DNA from: Bifidobacterium asteroides DSM 20089
GTDB lineage: Bacteria; Actinomycetota; Actinomycetes; Actinomycetales; Bifidobacteriaceae
Assembly: GCF_002715865.1 (NCBI RefSeq)
Contig: NZ_CP017696.1
Span: 620,001 to 684,000 of the forward strand
Direction of reading: 5' to 3'
DNA length: 64,000 nucleotides
This document shows positions 1 through 34,997 of the stretch, piece by piece. The stretch's first letter is position 1, and the number at the start of each line of letters is the position of its first letter. Below the pieces are notes generated by a model. That model worked only from the letters and a program-made list of their open reading frames with translations, was not told where the DNA came from and made no database searches. Both the position numbers and the translations under genes were made by a program.

Positions 1-1986
1 GGTGGTGGATTCGCTGCCGAGCTGGCTGCCCTTGTCGGGGTTGATATTCCACTGGTTGTTCTGTTTGTTTGGGGTCCAGTGGGCGGTGAGGGTGAGGCCT
101 TTGGTGACGGGCTTGCTGAAGTCGTAGGCGACTTCGTTGATGAACCATCCGTCGAACTGGTAGCCTTCGCGCGTTGGATCGGTCGTGGGGCGCTGGACTC
201 TGCCGTAGACTGGCTTGATGTTCTGGTCCTGTGGGGTTGGGCCTCCTCCGCCCGTGTTGAAGTGGACCGTGTAGGTGGGTCCTTGTTGGACGTCTCTGGT
301 CAGCGGCTGGTCGACCGTGTAGCCAAGGCTTCTGGTGAAGGGTTGGCCACCCTGGCTGCCGGTGATGAGAATAGTGGTTGGCCCCGGCTGGCGGGCGGGC
401 ATATCCATCTGCCAGGAGTCGTTGTTCTTGCTAAGTGTCAGGGGTTGATCGTCTATGCTGGCTGATTCCAGGGTGGGTGCTTGGATAGTGTCGAGCCTGG
501 TTGGGTTGCCGGGCTGGCCCTGCCCGTCCAAGCTCCACGTGAATATGCTGCCCTGTCTGTCGATGGCGGTGATCCTGCTGTCGGCTGCGGTGGTCTGCAT
601 GTAGGCCTGTCCCTTGTTGTCTGCGCGGATGGGCGTTTTGCCGGGCTTCCAGGCCCATACGTGGCCGTCTTTGTCGATGATCGTGGCCTGATCGCCACTG
701 CTGTTGATCATGCCGATCTGCGTGCCGCCGGGCAGGCTGCCGGCTGTGGGGCTGTTCTCGCCTTCGGTGAGATACCAGTCCTGCCCGTCCGTGTCCAGGA
801 GGAGGAACCCGTGGTCGAGGGCTTGGGCTTGGACTATGCGCATGCCCGGTTCCTGCCTGATGCGTGCGGGTTTGGCGTTTCCGGTATTAATCGTGTCCCA
901 GGTCCAGGCCTGTCCGTCCGAGTCCAAGATGAGGATCCGGCTGCCGGAGGCGACAGCGGTGACTGCCTGCGCCTTTCCGGGGAGGCTGGTTGTTTCCTGT
1001 TCCTCGGACTTCGGGCTCGCGTCCTGACCATCTCTCTGACTGTCTTGGAAGGCGTGGACCTGTCCCTGCCGGTCCACCGCCAGCAGAAGGTCGCCGTTCA
1101 TGCCGATGCTGGTGAACCCCGCATCCTGACCGGTGTCGAGGATGGCGGGCGTCGCTTGCCCGCTGGTCCAGATGTAGATGTGCTGGTCGGATCCGAGTGC
1201 GGCCTGCTCTCGGCTGCCGGCTGCAACCTGCAGGTAGTGGAACCCGTCGGCGGCCTGGGCGGGTGAGGGAACCTGCTTGGGTGTGCCGTCCTGCGTCCAT
1301 GTGTAGATGCGGCCGTCGCCGGTCAGGCCAACAAGCTGATTTCCTGCGGCTTGGATGCTGACGTAGCAGGGTTCCTGCCTGTCGGGCGGGCTGATGGTCA
1401 GCCGCGCCACGGTGGCGGGCCCGTGGTCCGGGCTCAGCGTCCAGTCCGTGGTCTTCGACCATTGGGCTTTCAGGGTCGTGTCCTGGAGGATGGGGGTCTG
1501 GAAGTCATAGGGCTGGCCTTTGTATGTCCATCCGTCGAACCGGAAGCCTTCACGCACAGGGTTCTTTTCCGAGGGAGCGGCGAGAGTGCCAGTTTGCACG
1601 GTTGACTGAGTGGGTGTGCTGCCGTCGGCGGGGTCGAAGCGCACTATGTGCGTGGCTTGATCGTCCGTCTTCTCTGCTGATTTAGCCGGAGCGGAGTGTG
1701 CACTGCCGGGTGTTCCCGTCCCCGATGACGGGATGCCAGGGCTTGGTGTTGCGGAGCTGAATGGTGTGGTGGCTTGTATTGGCGATGGCGAGGAAAGTGG
1801 AGTATCTGGTGCGCTGCTGGGGAGAGTGGCAGAGGTTCCGTCAACTACGCGAGGGGTTTGAAGATCCTTTTCCCCGGAGGGGATGGGAGCGTCCTCTTGG
1901 GCGGATGCGACGCCCAGGCCTGCCAGCAGGCTGATCAGGACGGTCATCATCGCAATGATGCGACGCAGCCGGGTACCTAGATGCAT
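1..1986 (-). CDS. Secreted InlB-repeat surface protein, C-terminus cut by window edge
   Basis: The frame stays open from an ATG at 1986 to base 1, giving at least 662 codons. The product starts MHLGTRLRR, followed by a hydrophobic signal segment ending near ASAQED. Next come a Ser/Thr/Pro-rich linker, an InlB-type B-repeat (about residues 115-180, FDGW core and a closing KAQW) and a middle region with repeated xWTW blades recalling a degenerate beta-propeller. A second B-repeat (about 573-635) ends in TLTAHW. The start is supported by AAGGGG about ten bases upstream, a leader also seen before the downstream paralogue at 2520-6101. The two proteins align over the whole visible length, so this is a tandem duplicate. 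By analogy the missing part should hold RCC1 repeats and a sorting signal, but that lies outside the window. The role is likely adhesion or cell-surface interaction (inference from InlB repeats); no ligand can be named. Confidence 0.85.
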   Translation of the reverse strand, partial: MHLGTRLRRIIAMMTVLISLLAGLGVASAQEDAPIPSGEKDLQTPRVVDGTSATLPSSAPDTPLSSPSPIQATTPFSSATPSPGIPSSGTGTPGSAHSAPAKSAEKTDDQATHIVRFDPADGSTPTQSTVQTGTLAAPSEKNPVREGFRFDGWTYKGQPYDFQTPILQDTTLKAQWSKTTDWTLSPDHGPATVARLTISPPDRQEPCYVSIQAAGNQLVGLTGDGRIYTWTQDGTPKQVPSPAQAADGFHYLQVAAGSREQAALGSDQHIYIWTSGQATPAILDTGQDAGFTSIGMNGDLLLAVDRQGQVHAFQDSQRDGQDASPKSEEQETTSLPGKAQAVTAVASGSRILILDSDGQAWTWDTINTGNAKPARIRQEPGMRIVQAQALDHGFLLLDTDGQDWYLTEGENSPTAGSLPGGTQIGMINSSGDQATIIDKDGHVWAWKPGKTPIRADNKGQAYMQTTAADSRITAIDRQGSIFTWSLDGQGQPGNPTRLDTIQAPTLESASIDDQPLTLSKNNDSWQMDMPARQPGPTTILITGSQGGQPFTRSLGYTVDQPLTRDVQQGPTYTVHFNTGGGGPTPQDQNIKPVYGRVQRPTTDPTREGYQFDGWFINEVAYDFSKPVTKGLTLTAHWTPNKQNNQWNINPDKGSQLGSESTT

Positions 1987-2297: not shown

Positions 2298-2310
2298 CCC
2301 CCCCCCCCCC
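2298..2310. repeat. Homopolymer C13 in intergenic region
   Basis: Thirteen consecutive C on the plus strand. Such tracts are prone to slippage. It lies upstream of the partial surface-protein gene (start 1986), so length change could alter promoter spacing or leader structure. Any effect is inference because no promoter was resolved next to it. Confidence 0.9.
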
Positions 2311-2519: not shown

Positions 2520-5500
2520 TTACTCGTGCGAAGTGTGCAGTAGCCTGTGCTGTTCTCTCCTATGGCGGCGTGAGGCCAGCACCCCGCCCATGCTGGTCAT
2601 GCTGGTGGCCAGAGCGAGGATGATGCCCTCACCGCCGGCATGAGGGAGCACGCCTGCAGGCAGGTATGTGTATCTGAGGGAGGTGTCGGTCAGGATGCGT
2701 CCTGCGCCGCCCATTGCATAGTCGACGCTGACTGTGACCGTACCTGGCTGGTGTGCGGGTGTGAGCACGGTGACGCTGTTGCTGTTGCTGACAGAAGCCA
2801 GGTTCGTGCCTGGGCTGGTGTCGAATCTGGCTGCAGTGATCACCGGCTGCAGGTTGAACAACACCGACACAGGAACGTTTGAGTCGTCGGTAGTGCCGTC
2901 GCCGAGCTGGCCATAGCTGTTTTCTCCCCAGGCGTATGCGTATCCGTTGCTGCCCACGGCCAGCGAATGATGGTCTCCGACGCTGAACCGTGTGGCTTGT
3001 AGCCCTTTGCTAGCGTCGGCTGGACTGGTGGGGTCGCGTACTGGCACAGGAACACTTGAGTTGCTGGTAGTGCCGTCGCCGAGCTGGCGATACAGGTTCC
3101 ATCCCCAGGCGTATGCGTATCCGTTGTTGCCCACAGCTAGTGAGTGCTCGCCTCCAGCGTTGATCGCTGTGGCTTTGAGCCCTTTGCTCGCGTCCTTGGG
3201 GCTGGTGGGGTCGCGTACGCGCACAGGAACTGTCGAATCTACTGTGTTGCTGTTGCCGAGTTGGCCATAGTTGTTTAATCCCCAGGCGTAGGTGTATCCG
3301 TCGCTGCCCACAGCCAACGAATGAGAGTATCCGGCGCTGACCTGTACGGCTTTCAGTCCTTTGTTTGCGTCGTTGGGGCTGGCGAAGTCTCGCACGCGCA
3401 CAGGAAAAGACGAAGAGTTTTTGCTGCTGTTGCCGAGTTGGCCATAGTTGTTTAATCCCCAGGCGTAGGTGTATCCGTCGCTGCCTACGGCCAGCGAATG
3501 GTGCCATCCGGCGCTGACCTGTACGGCTTTGAGCCCTTTGCTCGGGTCAGTGGGGCTGGCGGGGTCGCGCACGCGCACAGGAACAGACGAATCCGTGGTG
3601 CTGTTGTTGCCGAGCCGGCCATTGTCGTTCCAACCCCAGGCGTAGACGTATCCGTTGCTGTCCAAGGCCAGTGAATGCTCGTCTCCGGCGCTGACCTGTA
3701 TGGCTTTCAAGCCTTTGTTCGGGTCCGTGGGGTTGGCGGGGTCACGCACGCGCACAGGAACAGAGGAATTCGTTTTGGTGTTGTTGCCGAGCTGACCATG
3801 CTGGTTGCTGCCCCAGGCGTATACGTATCCGTCGCTACCCAAAGCCAGCGAATGCCATTTTCCTGCGCTCACCTGCACATAGGTGAAGTCGGTCGGCACA
3901 CCTGTAGGTTTCCTCACTATGTTCGGCGTACTCCGGCTGTTAGTCGTTGCGTCGCCGAGCTGGCCATAGGTGTTGTCTCCCCATGCGTAGGCTTTCCCGT
4001 CGCTGCCCACGGCCAAGGAAAAAACATAGGTATAGTATTTTGCTCCGCCGACCTGGTTGAATCTGATGCCGCTGGTGCTGTCCGGCGGGGTGATGGTGGT
4101 GGTTTCGTGGCCGAGCTGGCTGCCCTTGTCGGGGTTGATTCTCCAGGAGGTGTTGGGGGTTTTGCTGGTCCATTTGGCGGTAAGGGTGAGATTTTCGGTG
4201 ACGGGCTTGCTGAAGTCGTAGGCGACTTCGTTGATAAACCATCCGTCGAACTGGTAGCCGCTGCGGGTTGGGTCGGGTGAGGGCCGTTGGACTCTCCCGT
4301 AGGGATAGGTAACTTGCTGGTCTCCGGGTTTGGGGCTTCCTCCGTCTGCCTTGAAGGTGACCGTGGATGTGGAACTCTGTCGGATGTCCTTCAGAAGCGT
4401 ATGGTCTACCGTGTAGTTGAAGCTTCGGGTGAAGGGCTGGCCTTCCTGCCTGCCGGTCAGTGTGATGGTGACTGGTCCGGGCTGGCTTGCGGGCATTTCC
4501 GCCTGCCAGGAGCCGTCTGTTTTGTTGAGTGTCAGCGGCTGCCCGTCCAGGCTGGCTGATTCGAGAGTGGCCGCCTGGGTGGTGTTGACTTTTGCTGGCT
4601 TGTCTGGCTGGTTCTGGGTGTTGATGCTCCACTGGTATAGGCTGCCCTGCCTGTCTAGGGCGGTGATCCTGCCGCCGATGCGGACTGCTTGCAGGTAGTG
4701 CTGGTTCCCGTTGTCCGCGCGCGTGGGTGTCTCGCCTGGCTTCCAGGTCCAGATGTGGCCGTCCGTGCCGGTGATGACGGCCTGGTTCTTGTTGGCGGTG
4801 ATCCGGCTGGCTTTCATGTTTTCCGACAGGCCGGTGGTTGCGAGGCTTGTCTTGCCGTCGCCCAGGTAACAGGCCTGCCCATTTGCGCCCAGGAGGAGGA
4901 ACCCCTGGCTGAGGGCTTGGGCTTGGGTGATGCGCATGCCCTGGTCTTGTCTGATGCGTTCGGGCTTGACGTTGGCGGTCCTGCTTGTGTTCCAGGTCCA
5001 GGCTTGCCCGTCCGTGTCCAGGGCGAGGGTCCGGCTGGGGGAGGCGACGGCCAGTGTCGCCTGGGCCTGCTCGGGCAGAACGGTCGTGGCTTGTTCTGTC
5101 AATTTTTCGTTCTGACCGTCGGTTTGGTCGGCTTGGAAGGCGTGGACCTGTCCCTGCCGGTCCACCGCCAGCAGTAGGTCGTCGTTCATGCTGATGCTGG
5201 TGAACCTGGTGTTCTGCTTGGTGTCGAGGATGGTGGGCGTTGTTTGTCCGTTGGTCCAGGTGTAGATGTGCTGGTCGGATCCTATTGCGGCCTGCAATTG
5301 GTTGCCGGTTGCGGTCTGCTGGTAGCGGAACCCGTCGGGGGCCTGGGCGGGGGAGGGAACCTGCTTGGGTGTGCCGTCCTGTGCCCAGGTGTAGATGCGG
5401 CCGTCGCCGGTCAGACCGGTAAACTGGTCCCCTGCGGCTTGGATGCTCATGTAGTAGGGCTCTTGCAGGCTGGGTGGGCTGATGGTCACCCGGGTGCCGG

Positions 5501-6101
5501 AGGCGGGCCCGTGGTCCGGACTCAGCGTCCAGTCCGTGGCTTTGGCCCATTTTGCGGTCAGAGTTGTGTCTTGGAGGATGGGAACCTGGAAGTCATAGGG
5601 CTGGCCGTCACGTGTCCACCCGTCGAACCGGTAGCCTTCGCGCACGGGGTTGTTTTCCGGAGGGAATGCGAGGGTGCCGGCTTTCACGGTCGCCTGGGTA
5701 GGAGTGTTGCCGTCGCCTGGGTCGAAGCGCACCGTGTGCGAAGCTTGACCGTCCGTCTTGCCGGATGACTTGGCTGTAGAAGGACCTGTGCTTTTGGTGG
5801 CGTCCTTCGACGTTGACGGGACTTGGCTTGGTGCCGTGGGGTTCAGGGGTGATGCGGTTTGCAGCGGCGAGGGTGAAGGCAGGGGAGTGCTGGTTGCGCT
5901 GTTGGGGAGTGTGCCGGGGGTTTGCTCAGCTACGCGAGGGGTCTGACGACCCCCCCCCCCCCCGCTAAATACAGGAGTGCCCGCCGGACTGGCGGACACG
6001 ACATCGTCCGCGTTGGCGGACGCGACACCCAGGCCTGCCAGCAGGCCCAGCAGGACGATCGCCGTCGCCGATGCGCGACGCAGGCGGGTATCCAGATGCA
6101 T
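2520..6101 (-). CDS. Cell-wall-anchored InlB-repeat / RCC1-repeat surface protein with phase-variable G14 tract
   Basis: 1193 residues. Domain order: signal peptide (MHLDTRLRR then a hydrophobic run, cleavage near ASANA), Ser/Thr/Pro linker, InlB-type B-repeat (about 121-186), a middle region with xWTW-like blades, a second B-repeat (about 580-643), then seven RCC1-type repeats (about 690-1075, core YAWGxNxxGQLG). A beta-rich segment and the sorting signal follow: LPHAG, a hydrophobic stretch and an Arg/His-rich tail. LPHAG is a variant of the sortase LPxTG motif. The chosen ATG (6101) has AAGGGG at the same position as in the upstream paralogue; an in-frame start nine codons earlier (6128) lacks this. 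Codons 47-51 are a run of glycines written as 14 consecutive G. Losing or gaining one G gives a stop about 6-8 codons later. Function is probably adhesion; RCC1 propellers usually bind proteins. Confidence 0.9.
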   Translation of the reverse strand: MHLDTRLRRASATAIVLLGLLAGLGVASANADDVVSASPAGTPVFSGGGGGRQTPRVAEQTPGTLPNSATSTPLPSPSPLQTASPLNPTAPSQVPSTSKDATKSTGPSTAKSSGKTDGQASHTVRFDPGDGNTPTQATVKAGTLAFPPENNPVREGYRFDGWTRDGQPYDFQVPILQDTTLTAKWAKATDWTLSPDHGPASGTRVTISPPSLQEPYYMSIQAAGDQFTGLTGDGRIYTWAQDGTPKQVPSPAQAPDGFRYQQTATGNQLQAAIGSDQHIYTWTNGQTTPTILDTKQNTRFTSISMNDDLLLAVDRQGQVHAFQADQTDGQNEKLTEQATTVLPEQAQATLAVASPSRTLALDTDGQAWTWNTSRTANVKPERIRQDQGMRITQAQALSQGFLLLGANGQACYLGDGKTSLATTGLSENMKASRITANKNQAVITGTDGHIWTWKPGETPTRADNGNQHYLQAVRIGGRITALDRQGSLYQWSINTQNQPDKPAKVNTTQAATLESASLDGQPLTLNKTDGSWQAEMPASQPGPVTITLTGRQEGQPFTRSFNYTVDHTLLKDIRQSSTSTVTFKADGGSPKPGDQQVTYPYGRVQRPSPDPTRSGYQFDGWFINEVAYDFSKPVTENLTLTAKWTSKTPNTSWRINPDKGSQLGHETTTITPPDSTSGIRFNQVGGAKYYTYVFSLAVGSDGKAYAWGDNTYGQLGDATTNSRSTPNIVRKPTGVPTDFTYVQVSAGKWHSLALGSDGYVYAWGSNQHGQLGNNTKTNSSVPVRVRDPANPTDPNKGLKAIQVSAGDEHSLALDSNGYVYAWGWNDNGRLGNNSTTDSSVPVRVRDPASPTDPSKGLKAVQVSAGWHHSLAVGSDGYTYAWGLNNYGQLGNSSKNSSSFPVRVRDFASPNDANKGLKAVQVSAGYSHSLAVGSDGYTYAWGLNNYGQLGNSNTVDSTVPVRVRDPTSPKDASKGLKATAINAGGEHSLAVGNNGYAYAWGWNLYRQLGDGTTSNSSVPVPVRDPTSPADASKGLQATRFSVGDHHSLAVGSNGYAYAWGENSYGQLGDGTTDDSNVPVSVLFNLQPVITAARFDTSPGTNLASVSNSNSVTVLTPAHQPGTVTVSVDYAMGGAGRILTDTSLRYTYLPAGVLPHAGGEGIILALATSMTSMGGVLASRRHRREQHRLLHTSHE
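5950..5963 (-). repeat. Coding homopolymer G14 (contingency tract)
   Basis: Fourteen C on the plus strand, read as G14 in codons 47-51 of the RCC1 surface protein just after the signal peptide. With 14 G the frame is open to the end. With 15 G it runs into TGA after GGGGG-SSDPSRS; with 13 G into TAG after GGGG-VVRPLA. The paralogue has SGEKD at this position and no tract. Confidence 0.9.
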
Positions 6102-6363
6102 GAAATCAATCCCCTTCACCAATGCCAAGCGGTATCAAGGCCGCCTGCCTATCAGCATTAACGTCTTTCAAAGTTGATGAACCGTCGCTACTGTGGGCGT
6201 TAATGGCCCATAAAGCAGAAGCCAGTTATCTCCCAACATCCCCACTTTTCACTTTACCACCAAGCCAACAGAGAACGCACGAAATGCAGAAGCGCGACGG
6301 TAGGCCTTAAACAACGGCTGATCCCATCTTGCCTGCCGGATAGAATGAACACACAATACGTCA

Positions 6364-6380
6364 CGGCCGCTGATCGGCCG
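6364..6380 (+). promoter_or_regulatory. Small hairpin just before the reductase ribosome binding site
   Basis: CGGCCG-CTGAT-CGGCCG forms a 6-bp stem with a 5-base loop three bases before AAGGAG (6383-6388) of the gene starting at 6398. It could act as an operator dyad or a leader hairpin; no regulator is known for it. Confidence 0.35.
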
Positions 6381-6397
6381 ATAAGGAGCATGACTAT

Positions 6398-7237
6398 ATG
6401 ACCGGAAACGTCACCGATACCGTCATCACCCTCAACAACGGGGTCAGCATTCCCCAGCTGGGGCTCGGGGTCTTCCAAACACCCGACGGCGAGGCCACCA
6501 GCCAGGCCGTCACCTGGGCCCTGCAGGCGGGTTATCGCCACATTGACACCGCCATGATCTACGGCAACGAGCAGTCCGTGGGGGAGGGTCTGCGCCGCTC
6601 CGGGGTTGACCGGCGGGATGTCTTCCTGACCACCAAGCTCTGGAATGACGACATCCGCGCTGGGCGGGCCAAGGAGGCCTTCAAGGAGAGCCTGGACCGG
6701 CTGGGCGTGGACTACCTGGACCTCTACCTGATCCACTGGCCCGCCAAGGGCTGGCGGCAGGCCTGGGAGGACATGGAAGAGCTTTACACCCAGCGGCGGG
6801 TGCGGGCCATCGGGGTCTGCAACTTCCAGAAGCAACACCTTGACGAGCTGCACACCATCAGCGGCACCAAGCCGGCGGTTGACCAGATCGAGTCCTCGCC
6901 CCAGTTCGTCAACGACGACCTGATCGACTACTGCCATGGCACCCTGCGCGTGGATGTGGAGGCCTACAGTCCCCTGGGCGGCACCGGCGGCAGCCTGCTG
7001 GCCGACCCCGGGCTCAAGGCTATGGCCGAGCGCTATGACCGCTCCCCGGCACAGATCGTGCTGCGCTGGCACCTGCAGCGCGGAGTCATCGTCATCCCCA
7101 AGTCCACCCACAAGGAGCGGATCGAGCAGAACGCGCAGGTCTTCGACTTCGAGCTGAGCGACGAGGACATGAAGGCCATCACCGCCATGAACAGGGACGA
7201 GCGCACCGGTGCGGATCCCGACAACTTCGACTTCTGA
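6398..7237 (+). CDS. Aldo/keto reductase (2,5-diketo-D-gluconate reductase-like)
   Basis: 279 residues, the usual length for an AKR5-type (beta/alpha)8 NADPH-dependent carbonyl reductase. The catalytic tetrad is visible: Asp in GYRHIDTA, Tyr in MIYGNE, Lys in LTTKLW and His in LIHWP. The C-terminal cofactor loop (VIPKSTHKERIEQN) and closing DPDNFDF are typical. AAGGAG at 6383-6388 supports the ATG. It is transcribed alone, divergent from the surface-protein gene and convergent with the alarmone synthetase gene. The substrate cannot be deduced; family members reduce diketogluconates, methylglyoxal and other aldehydes in the cytosol. Confidence 0.93.
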   Translation: MTGNVTDTVITLNNGVSIPQLGLGVFQTPDGEATSQAVTWALQAGYRHIDTAMIYGNEQSVGEGLRRSGVDRRDVFLTTKLWNDDIRAGRAKEAFKESLDRLGVDYLDLYLIHWPAKGWRQAWEDMEELYTQRRVRAIGVCNFQKQHLDELHTISGTKPAVDQIESSPQFVNDDLIDYCHGTLRVDVEAYSPLGGTGGSLLADPGLKAMAERYDRSPAQIVLRWHLQRGVIVIPKSTHKERIEQNAQVFDFELSDEDMKAITAMNRDERTGADPDNFDF

Positions 7238-32648: not shown

Positions 32649-34997
32649 ATGGTGGCGAAAAAGGCTGATACGGCAAAGTCCTATGGTGCCGGAAGTCTGA
32701 CGGTTCTGGAGGGCCTGGATGCTGTACGCAAGCGTCCAGGCATGTATATCGGGACTACGGACAGCCAGGGGCTCATGCACTGCCTTTGGGAGATCATCGA
32801 CAACGCCGTGGACGAGGCCCTGGCCGGCCAATGCGACCACATCAAGGTCATCCTGCACAAGGACGGCTCCATCGAAGTGGACGACAACGGCCGAGGCATC
32901 CCAGTCGATATTGAGCCTCGGACAGGGCTGACCGGCGTGGAGGTGGTTCTGACCAAGCTCCACGCGGGTGCCAAGTTCGGCAACTCTTCTTATACGGCCG
33001 TGGGCGGCCTGCACGGGGTAGGCTCTTCGGTGGTCAACGCCCTGAGCTCCCGGTTGGATGTCGAGGTGGACAGGGACGGCAAGACACATAGGATGCGGTT
33101 CCATCAAGGCCATCCCGGTACCTACCAGGACCCTGACCCGGAGCATCCCTCGCCTGACTCGCCATTCAAACGCACCAGGAAGAACCGGCCTACGCCCCTG
33201 GAGGTGGTGGGCAGCGTGCCTAAGTCCCGGACCGGTACCAGGGTGCGCTACTGGGCCGACCCAGAAATCTTCAACCCCACGGCCCGGTTCAGCTACGACC
33301 AGCTGATTGACCGAGTGCGCCAGACCAGCTTCCTGGTGCCTGGCCTCAAGATCACCGTGATCGACGAGCGCATCCCCGCCACAGGCAGCGCCGAGCAGGA
33401 CCTGCGCCTGGAGGTTGACGGCGAACCCGCTGGGGAGTCGAACAACCAGGGTGTTCAGGAGAACCCTCTTGAATCGTCTGACAGCGGCGGCCTCACTGAA
33501 GAGGGCGATGAAGACGAAAGTGCCGAGGACGCACAGGCGGATGATACCGATCTTTCGGCCACCGAACAGGCTGACCGGGCCATGTTGAGGCCGGAGGACG
33601 AGTCCGACCATCAGCGCGTGGAGGAGTTCCTGCACACCGGCGGTGTGACGGACTTTGTGGACTTCCTGTCCAAGGGCGAGCCGGTCAGTGACGTCTGGCG
33701 GATCAGCGGCCAGGACACCTACCAGGAGGAGACTCAGCGGGTAGGCACCGACGGCGAGCTGCACGCCGAGCAGGTGGAACGTGTCTGCGGGGTGGATATT
33801 GCCCTGCGCTGGGTCAATGACTATGATTCAGTCGTCCGTAGCTTCGTCAATGTGGTCGAGACGCCCGGCGGAGGCATGCACGTGGACGGGTTCATGAACG
33901 CCATGACCCGCCAGGTGCGTAAGGCCGTGGAGGCCAACGCCCGCCGTCTCAAGGTCAACCTCAAGGACTCCCACACCAAGGTGGAGCGCGACGACGTCCT
34001 GGCCGGGCTGGTGGCCGTGGTCACCGTACGCATCGCCGAGCCGCAGTTCCAGGGCCAGACCAAGGACGTGCTGGGTACGGCCCAGGTCAAGCCCATCGTC
34101 ACCCGGATGACCGACGACCAGTTCGGCCAGATGATCAGCGGCTCCAAGCGCGGCTTCAAGGAGCAGTCCGGCCAGGTGCTGGAGAAGATCGTCGGCGAGA
34201 TGCACGCCCGCGTCCAGGCACGCAAGACCAAGGAGGTCACCAGGCGCAAGAACGCCCTGGAGTCAGCCTCCATGCCCTCCAAGCTCTCGGATTCCATGCC
34301 CGGCAACGACGACATCGCCGAGCTGTTCATCGTCGAGGGCGACTCCGCCCTGGGTACGGCCAAGGCTGCCCGAAACTCCATGTTCCAGGCCCTGCTGCCC
34401 ATCCGTGGCAAGATCCTCAACGTCCAGAAGGCCTCCCTGTCCCAGATGCTGACCAACAAGGAGTGCGCCTCCATAATCCAGGTCGTCGGCGCCGGTTCGG
34501 GAGCCAGCTTCGACATCGACCAGGCCCGCTACAACAAGGTCATCATGATGACCGATGCTGACGTGGACGGTGCCCACATCCGCATCCTGCTGCTGACCCT
34601 CTTCTACCGCTACATGCGTCCACTGATTGAGAACGGGCGAGTCTACGCCGCCGTGCCCCCCCTGCATCGAATCGCGCTTGCAGGCAGGAACAAGGGAAAG
34701 TTCATCTACACCTATTCGGACGATGAGCTGGAGGGCAAGCTGGCCGACCTGCAGGCCAAGCACATCGACTACAATCCCGATGTGCAGCGCTACAAGGGTC
34801 TGGGCGAGATGGACGCCGACCAGCTGGCCGACACCACCATGGATCCCCGGACCCGCATGCTGCGCCGCATCCGCATGGAGGATGCCGCTCAGGCGGCCGG
34901 CATCTTCCCCCTGCTCATGGGCGACGACGTACCGCCCCGCAAGCAGTTCATCGTGGACAATGCCGACGACTTCGACCGGAGCAAGATCGACACCTGA
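32649..34997 (+). CDS. parE: DNA topoisomerase IV subunit B (GyrB-like)
   Basis: 782 residues. Type IIA topoisomerase ATPase subunit. GHKL ATP site: EIIDNAVDEA, DNGRGIPVD, GLHGVGSSVVNALS. The TOPRIM domain has EGDSALGTAK and DADVDGAHIR, with PLRG replaced by ALLPIRGKILN. Its partner gene, parC, lies at 40010-42646, beyond lhr. The position next to a GyrA-like gene away from dnaA/gyrB favours topoisomerase IV. An insertion of ~75 acidic residues (about 255-330, Glu/Asp/Ser/Gln-rich) interrupts the transducer region and is not in E. coli ParE. ATG start. Confidence 0.9.
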   Translation: MVAKKADTAKSYGAGSLTVLEGLDAVRKRPGMYIGTTDSQGLMHCLWEIIDNAVDEALAGQCDHIKVILHKDGSIEVDDNGRGIPVDIEPRTGLTGVEVVLTKLHAGAKFGNSSYTAVGGLHGVGSSVVNALSSRLDVEVDRDGKTHRMRFHQGHPGTYQDPDPEHPSPDSPFKRTRKNRPTPLEVVGSVPKSRTGTRVRYWADPEIFNPTARFSYDQLIDRVRQTSFLVPGLKITVIDERIPATGSAEQDLRLEVDGEPAGESNNQGVQENPLESSDSGGLTEEGDEDESAEDAQADDTDLSATEQADRAMLRPEDESDHQRVEEFLHTGGVTDFVDFLSKGEPVSDVWRISGQDTYQEETQRVGTDGELHAEQVERVCGVDIALRWVNDYDSVVRSFVNVVETPGGGMHVDGFMNAMTRQVRKAVEANARRLKVNLKDSHTKVERDDVLAGLVAVVTVRIAEPQFQGQTKDVLGTAQVKPIVTRMTDDQFGQMISGSKRGFKEQSGQVLEKIVGEMHARVQARKTKEVTRRKNALESASMPSKLSDSMPGNDDIAELFIVEGDSALGTAKAARNSMFQALLPIRGKILNVQKASLSQMLTNKECASIIQVVGAGSGASFDIDQARYNKVIMMTDADVDGAHIRILLLTLFYRYMRPLIENGRVYAAVPPLHRIALAGRNKGKFIYTYSDDELEGKLADLQAKHIDYNPDVQRYKGLGEMDADQLADTTMDPRTRMLRRIRMEDAAQAAGIFPLLMGDDVPPRKQFIVDNADDFDRSKIDT

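Follow-up and report, generated by a model that had tools for sequence, protein, structure and literature searches.

Does the run of 14 consecutive G residues near the start of a predicted surface-protein gene of Bifidobacterium asteroides DSM 20089 function as an on/off switch? The window, the stretch of 64,000 nucleotides of contig NZ_CP017696.1 analysed here, has this gene on its minus strand (genome coordinates 622,520-626,101), where its neighbours are a further RCC1 gene and, in divergent orientation, a gene for an aldo/keto reductase. The gene and its recognizable parts are as follows, in positions of the window.

2520..6101, minus strand: CDS of a predicted secreted RCC1/Listeria-Bacteroides-repeat surface protein of 1,193 amino acids, from the open reading frame and Pfam matches; ON here
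6111..6116, minus strand: putative Shine-Dalgarno sequence AAGGGG, 9 nt 5′ of the ATG at 6101, as read from the sequence
6009..6101, minus strand: putative signal peptide MHLDTRLRRASATAIVLLGLLAGLGVASANA, recognized by eye from its charged start, hydrophobic core and ANA
4173..4364, minus strand: best stretch of Listeria-Bacteroides repeat (Flg_new, PF09479), Pfam query residues 579-642
3009..4118, minus strand: best stretch of RCC1-like domain (PF25390), Pfam query residues 661-1030
2523..2648, minus strand: putative cell-wall sorting signal, with LPHAG, a hydrophobic stretch and an RRHRR tail, recognized by eye
1..1986, minus strand: 5′-part of the next RCC1 paralogue, which runs on outside the window; its tract is interrupted (GGGGAAAAGG) and in frame

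The listed open reading frame begins at a TTG (2520..6128, minus strand, 1202 amino acids), but the ATG at 6101 is the likelier start because of the nine-base spacing of the AAGGGG. With a query that starts at residue 2 of the protein, Pfam returned matches to PF00415 and PF25390 (RCC1) and to PF09479 (Listeria-Bacteroides, Flg_new, InlB-type), confirming the RCC1/InlB assignment made in the first-pass annotation; an anchor-domain match was not found in this search. Two sortase matches are present in the genome, at 272,765 and 2,046,659, far from the gene. A search of positions 6050-6450 found no consensus promoter or terminator. A G13 run (2298-2310, minus strand) is located between the RCC1 gene and its paralogue.

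The tract and the stop codons that follow it in the two alternative frames are:

5950..5963, minus strand: G14 tract (14 C on the plus strand), codons 47-51; ON when the number of G residues, n, is 2 mod 3 with the present upstream sequence
5930..5932, minus strand: off-frame stop TAG, read when n is 1 mod 3 (for example G13)
5926..5928, minus strand: off-frame stop TGA, read when n is 0 mod 3 (for example G12 or G15)

Counted from the ATG, 46 codons precede the tract, which then provides codons 47-50 and two bases of codon 51. This places it just past the signal-peptide region, as the first-pass annotation had stated, and re-translation also agrees with the off-frame readings given there, peptides of 56-58 residues ending at TGA with 15 G and at TAG with 13 G. 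With n = 15, the 46 codons are followed by five glycines and SSDPSRS before the TGA (58 amino acids), and with n = 13 by four glycines and VVRPLA before the TAG (56 amino acids). Both off-frame forms exist naturally, in the orthologues L094 (G15) and L150 (G13, with VVRSLA instead). A one-base change in the tract results in an early stop after 6 or 7 codons, and natural orthologues with G12, G13 and G15 are OFF.

Dinucleotide shuffling of the window gives an expectation of 0.01 G14 runs, with one found in 1 of 100 shuffles. The window G14 is not, however, unique, as the genome (one contig, 2,190,368 bases) is rich in long G-runs, with 36 of at least G9 and 15 of at least G14. Nine of the 36 are near the starts of RCC1 genes and one is within an ABC-type permease ORF. 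Many of the remainder, in the subset of runs that was classified, are outside any clear gene and therefore long runs also arise without a coding function. Such runs would be expected everywhere if small indels were not repaired, with the tract then having no role and the OFF copies being dead genes. Consistent with this neutral explanation, long runs are common and often outside clear genes, a run between RCC1 genes varies in length from species to species (G18 here, G10 in L021 and G14 in L024), and a search for MutS_V (PF00488) gave 0 matches, the control search being positive in 11 of 14 genomes. The evidence that opposes it comes from the genes themselves, as described below.

Several of the other long runs have features of their own. 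The G18 run, at 618233-618250, is downstream of RCC1 genes, has conserved flanks and is in no clear gene; the same intergenic run is present in three species, as G10 at L021:8738 and G14 at L024:3580. A G17 tract at 34200-34216 is located in frame, ~35 codons into the ABC-type permease ORF (PF00528), and this ORF is a possible second kind of phase-variable gene, with a function in transport. An ORF fragment that, by eye, resembles an integrase ends in a G15 run at 1426342-1426356.

RCC1 genes, counted as distinct open frames, number at least 20 in the genome, a lower bound as 150 of 218 candidates were scored. In nine of these the signal-peptide region is followed by a tract of 12-17 G. Of the nine, four are ON, at genome positions 288094 (G15), 375159 (G17), 625950 (G14, the window gene) and 1076517 (G14), and five are OFF, at 371087 (G12), 403754 (G12), 406502 (G13), 1068265 (G13) and 1072371 (G15). 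The signal-peptide region of the copy at 406502 is damaged and this gene looks degenerate.

A protein-based scan of named genomes identified 19 loci, all in Bifidobacterium, which we take to be the B. asteroides group of the bee gut. Four of these loci are syntenic with the window, with 94-98% identity in the 299 bp upstream and in the two genes that come next, which encode the aldo/keto reductase and a RelA/SpoT-domain protein. From the window onwards, tract lengths at the five syntenic loci are 14, 13, 12, 13 and 15. L021 (B. mellis, G12), L022 (B. choladohabitans, G13) and L023 (B. asteroides VRA_9sq_n, G15) are OFF, and L020, with G13, is kept in frame by an additional G ahead of the tract. 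The flanks are therefore conserved, in contrast to the tract. The first-pass annotation had named an unvarying length across strains as evidence against a switch, and these loci do not show one; the lengths differ between species.

Across the genus, 27 genomes were scanned with the exact pattern GGGGGGTCGTCAGACCCC, the tract plus its flank. There are 74 sites in 11 of the genomes, with 0 in the reversed-pattern control, and 72 were analysed, L079 and L083 being cut by contig ends. Tract lengths range from G11 to G17 (G11, 13 genes; G12, 45; G13, 6; G14, 4; G15, 3; G17, 1), with 18 genes ON and 54 OFF, and one genome (G020) has 16 exact-pattern genes, the maximum. A relaxed scan, allowing up to 3 mismatches and with one reversed-control match (G015), added 22 sites, namely 14 with a variant flank and a tract, 7 with a broken tract and one chance match (L155, outside the RCC1 family and so dropped). 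Together with 288094, the 72 and the 14 make 87 tract-bearing RCC1 genes, 20 ON and 67 OFF. The ON share is not different from one third in the smaller set (18/72, p 0.17) and slightly low in the larger set (20/87, p 0.04). Such counts are not independent, as the paralogues share ancestry and gene conversion may have made them more alike. One gene counted as OFF (L113) is without a recognizable signal-peptide ATG. RCC1 genes with an MRIS/MRIG-type signal peptide have G14 and are ON in three species (1076517, L081:395 and L109:410); L113 and L116, which share this context, are OFF. Elsewhere in the genus, genome G026 has 42 runs of at least G13 (14 forward, 28 reverse), the most among the 27 genomes, and no RCC1 tract in the exact-pattern scan.

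Could these counts simply be wrong? If G numbers in databases were unreliable, the pattern of ON and OFF would be noise from sequencing and assembly, an error of which PMC9187656 warns. The nine multi-contig genomes have 54 tracts, of which 40 are exactly G12 and 8 are ON, an excess of G12 that could come from assembly or could mean that most of these genes truly are OFF. The other exact-pattern genes, in the genome of DSM 20089 (3/6 ON) and in G018 (7/12 ON; contig C1, at 2.08 Mb, is about whole size), give 10 ON of 18. The lengths vary, however, inside both of these genomes (12-17 in the one-contig genome of DSM 20089, 11-14 in G018), L070 has its frame restored by an additional base ahead of the tract, and the conservation of off-frame stops and the in-frame state of broken-tract copies, both documented below, are independent of exact counts. 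That the pattern is an artefact is scarcely credible.

Nor do the OFF genes have the appearance of dead genes. An ORF of at least 900 amino acids follows the tract in 50 of 54 OFF genes and in 16 of 18 ON genes, and two of the four OFF genes that have no such body are cut by the end of the analysed stretch. Values of dN/dS, calculated with our own Nei-Gojobori script over stretches of at least 60% identity for 18 pairs that we picked from 30 close pairs, range from 0.14 to 0.53, and from 0.14 to 0.49 in the ten pairs in which both genes are OFF. By the test of sequence, then, the OFF genes are not dead, their bodies being intact and constrained, contrary to the neutral explanation. Tract lengths are unequal in 19 of the 30 pairs, all of which are at least 88% identical over 2.5 kb, and in 15 pairs one gene is ON and the other OFF. 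The two most similar genes, at 99.3% identity and from two species, are G11 and ON in one species and G12 and OFF in the other.

The sequence that follows the tract provides a second line of evidence:

5926..5949, minus strand: 24-nt element 3′ of the tract, TCGTCAGACCCCTCGCGTAGCTGA; the second 12 nt are nearly invariant and are outside the search pattern

As the invariance of the first 12 nt is forced by the search pattern, only bases beyond it count, these being the third bases of the codons CCT, CGC, GTA and GCT. Over the 72 genes the mean entropy is 0.12 bit in the second 12-nt bin downstream, at least 0.55 beyond and 0.96 before the tract. The element is common to three signal-peptide types, with variation rising to both sides. 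In 71 of the 72 genes it introduces stops into both alternative frames, at 5 and 7 codons after the tract, compared with a background of 1.88% for two stops within 7 codons at 72,734 arbitrary codon positions in the same genes. The codon analysis covered 71 of the 72 genes, those with a body of at least 600 amino acids. The stop-forming GTA is present in 70/71 and represents 10.9% of Val codons in these genes, and the stop-forming GCT is present in 70/70 and represents 11.5% of Ala codons; neither is forced by the pattern, being outside it. In two diverged flank types (TCGACCGACCGC... and TCGTTATACCGC...) the amino acids differ but TAG and TAA are at the same places, and of the 14 variant copies 13, all but the degenerate 406502, reach a stop in each alternative frame no more than 11 codons from where the tract starts. 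Some of the uniformity of the element may be due to gene conversion, which may also be reflected in the CCT and CGC codons, as the stops do not explain these. A potential hairpin at the tract end, GGGGTC-GTCA-GACCCC, was considered as a driver of slippage or the main cause of flank conservation, and was rejected; it is ordinary relative to shuffles (z -1.26; 25 of 200 give an equally good fold), and variant flanks have a weak or altered form of it.

In ten relatives the tract is either broken up by other bases or reduced to no more than 6 G. Seven were found by the relaxed scan and three are in the genome of DSM 20089, including the neighbour that starts at window position 1986, so that these are a sample and not a full census. 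All ten are in frame, compared with 20 of 87 tract-bearing genes (Fisher p 2e-6), and 4 of the 10 retain both nearby off-frame stops, compared with 71 of 72 tract genes (Fisher p 4e-6), both p values overstating the evidence as the copies form, by eye, about two lineages. This is the direction predicted for a real switch, in which the loss of a slippable tract would fix the frame as ON and the stops might then decay. A roleless tract with dead OFF copies would not readily account for ten in-frame copies in ten or for stops that are almost always present with a tract and often lost without one, and with the intact OFF bodies this makes the neutral explanation very unlikely.

The same copies bear on recoding. 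Slippage of RNA polymerase or of ribosomes on the G-run could, in principle, generate some full-length protein at every tract length, so that the tract would set a level of expression rather than an on/off state. Long G-runs could well be slippery in transcription or translation, intact OFF genes are equally allowed by such a mechanism, and the potential hairpin is at the tract end. The hairpin is, however, unremarkable, as documented above, all ten broken-tract copies are in frame, and nearly invariant off-frame stops would be needless if recoding were efficient. In B. breve, moreover, pilus-like structures are described in strains with the tract in frame but not in their parent (PMC9187656, in the sections used here). 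We consider recoding very unlikely indeed.

The reading that we favour, with considerable confidence, is slipped-strand phase variation of a multigene family of RCC1 surface proteins, with the window G14 as one simple-sequence contingency switch. Replication slippage would add or remove G residues in the tract. With n at 2 mod 3, here 14, the signal peptide would be in frame with the RCC1 body and result in a wall-anchored surface protein; at other lengths a built-in TAG or TGA within seven codons would limit translation to a peptide of ~56-58 residues and there would be no surface protein. Slippage would presumably be frequent and reversible within a population, expression and surface display would follow the frame, and the benefit would be surface variation in the bee gut. 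NucS is present, and NucS-based repair has been reviewed as unable to correct indels, although polymerase proofreading may suppress most short indels (both PMC8228993, from the parts of that review drawn on here). If NucS indeed cannot correct indels, slipped G-runs would escape mismatch repair. The on/off switch first proposed for the window gene alone is thus supported by the differing tract lengths of syntenic orthologues and paralogues, the intact and constrained OFF bodies, the conserved stops and the in-frame broken copies. What the first-pass annotation missed is the multigene scale, with a shared flanking element, and a mechanism already published for sortase pili of the genus (PMC9187656).

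With nine RCC1 genes each having its own tract, cells could display different combinations of these proteins. An extension of this, to which we would give even chances, is a combinatorial switchboard of up to ~16 RCC1 proteins per bee-gut Bifidobacterium genome, each gated by poly-G and all with a shared element, with some paralogues permanently ON. The shared element would be at the DNA level, the tract with its overlapping TAG/TRA off-frame stops, kept or copied across signal-peptide types. As most switches are OFF in the assembled genomes, a clonal population would, on the switchboard reading, present many surface types.

RCC1 surface proteins are described as particularly diverse among bee-gut bifidobacteria (PMC4449606) and have been assigned no distinct function (PMC3447821), in the portions of those papers considered here. 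If many copies are gated by poly-G, the displayed proteins cannot be deduced from gene content alone, cultured isolates may show few RCC1 proteins, and how strains differ in the bee gut could depend on switch settings that are poorly captured by assemblies. The combination of conserved off-frame stops and in-frame broken copies also provides a test for selected switches that needs sequence alone and is applicable to other genomes.

As documented for these proteins in the sections of PMC3447821 and PMC4449606 used here, the window protein has RCC1 repeats and a Listeria-Bacteroides domain, and belongs to a family of tandem copies that diversify; the C-terminal wall anchor documented for them has a putative counterpart, recognized by eye, in the window protein. 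There are 19 copies in PRL2011 (PMC3447821) and 7-24 per genome, with LPxTG anchors (PMC4449606). The terms 'frameshift', 'homopolymer' and 'phase varia' have 0 occurrences in the main texts of both papers, as does 'slippage' in that of PMC4449606, and a search of titles and the starts of abstracts, with most subscription journals outside its coverage, found no report of RCC1-family phase variation.

The closest known system is in the same genus. The ON or OFF state of two pilus genes of B. breve UCC2003 is set by tract length, which shifts after mouse passage (PMC9187656, Penno 2022), and other relevant G-tracts are mentioned for this strain, in the sections at hand without details. The sortase-pilus switch (bbr_0113, bbr_1889 and relatives) has, like the RCC1 genes, an intragenic G-tract between a secretion signal and an anchored body, both of which were read by eye in the window gene. 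In both systems the OFF form is a short ORF and the frame is restored by a changed number of G residues (PMC9187656). As described in the same sections, however, the pilus gene is the first of a pilus operon with its own sortase, whereas the RCC1 genes have no sortase gene beside them; there are at most two pilus tract clusters per genome, compared with up to 16 RCC1 genes by the exact pattern; and pilus tracts have 8-13 G (PMC9187656, Table 1), compared with 11-17. The RCC1 family is further set apart from that system, as there described, by a shared flank with two off-frame stops and by broken-tract copies.

The Opa genes of Neisseria gonorrhoeae differ from the RCC1 poly-G genes in having a pentanucleotide repeat and encoding an outer-membrane protein. 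They are similar in being a dispersed multigene surface family, with ~11 genes scattered over the chromosome and subject to stochastic phase variation (PMC3745409, in the portion consulted). DsA1 and DsA2, adhesins of Cutibacterium (Propionibacterium) acnes, are likewise surface proteins of an actinobacterium and have hypermutable homopolymeric tracts close to the signal peptide, but two genes are named, in the part of PMC3772855 cited here, and the protein family is different. This kind of poly-G switch has, therefore, already been published for sortase pili in the genus, and its RCC1 member appears to be new; the unusual parts of the RCC1 case are the size of the family and the conserved stop element.
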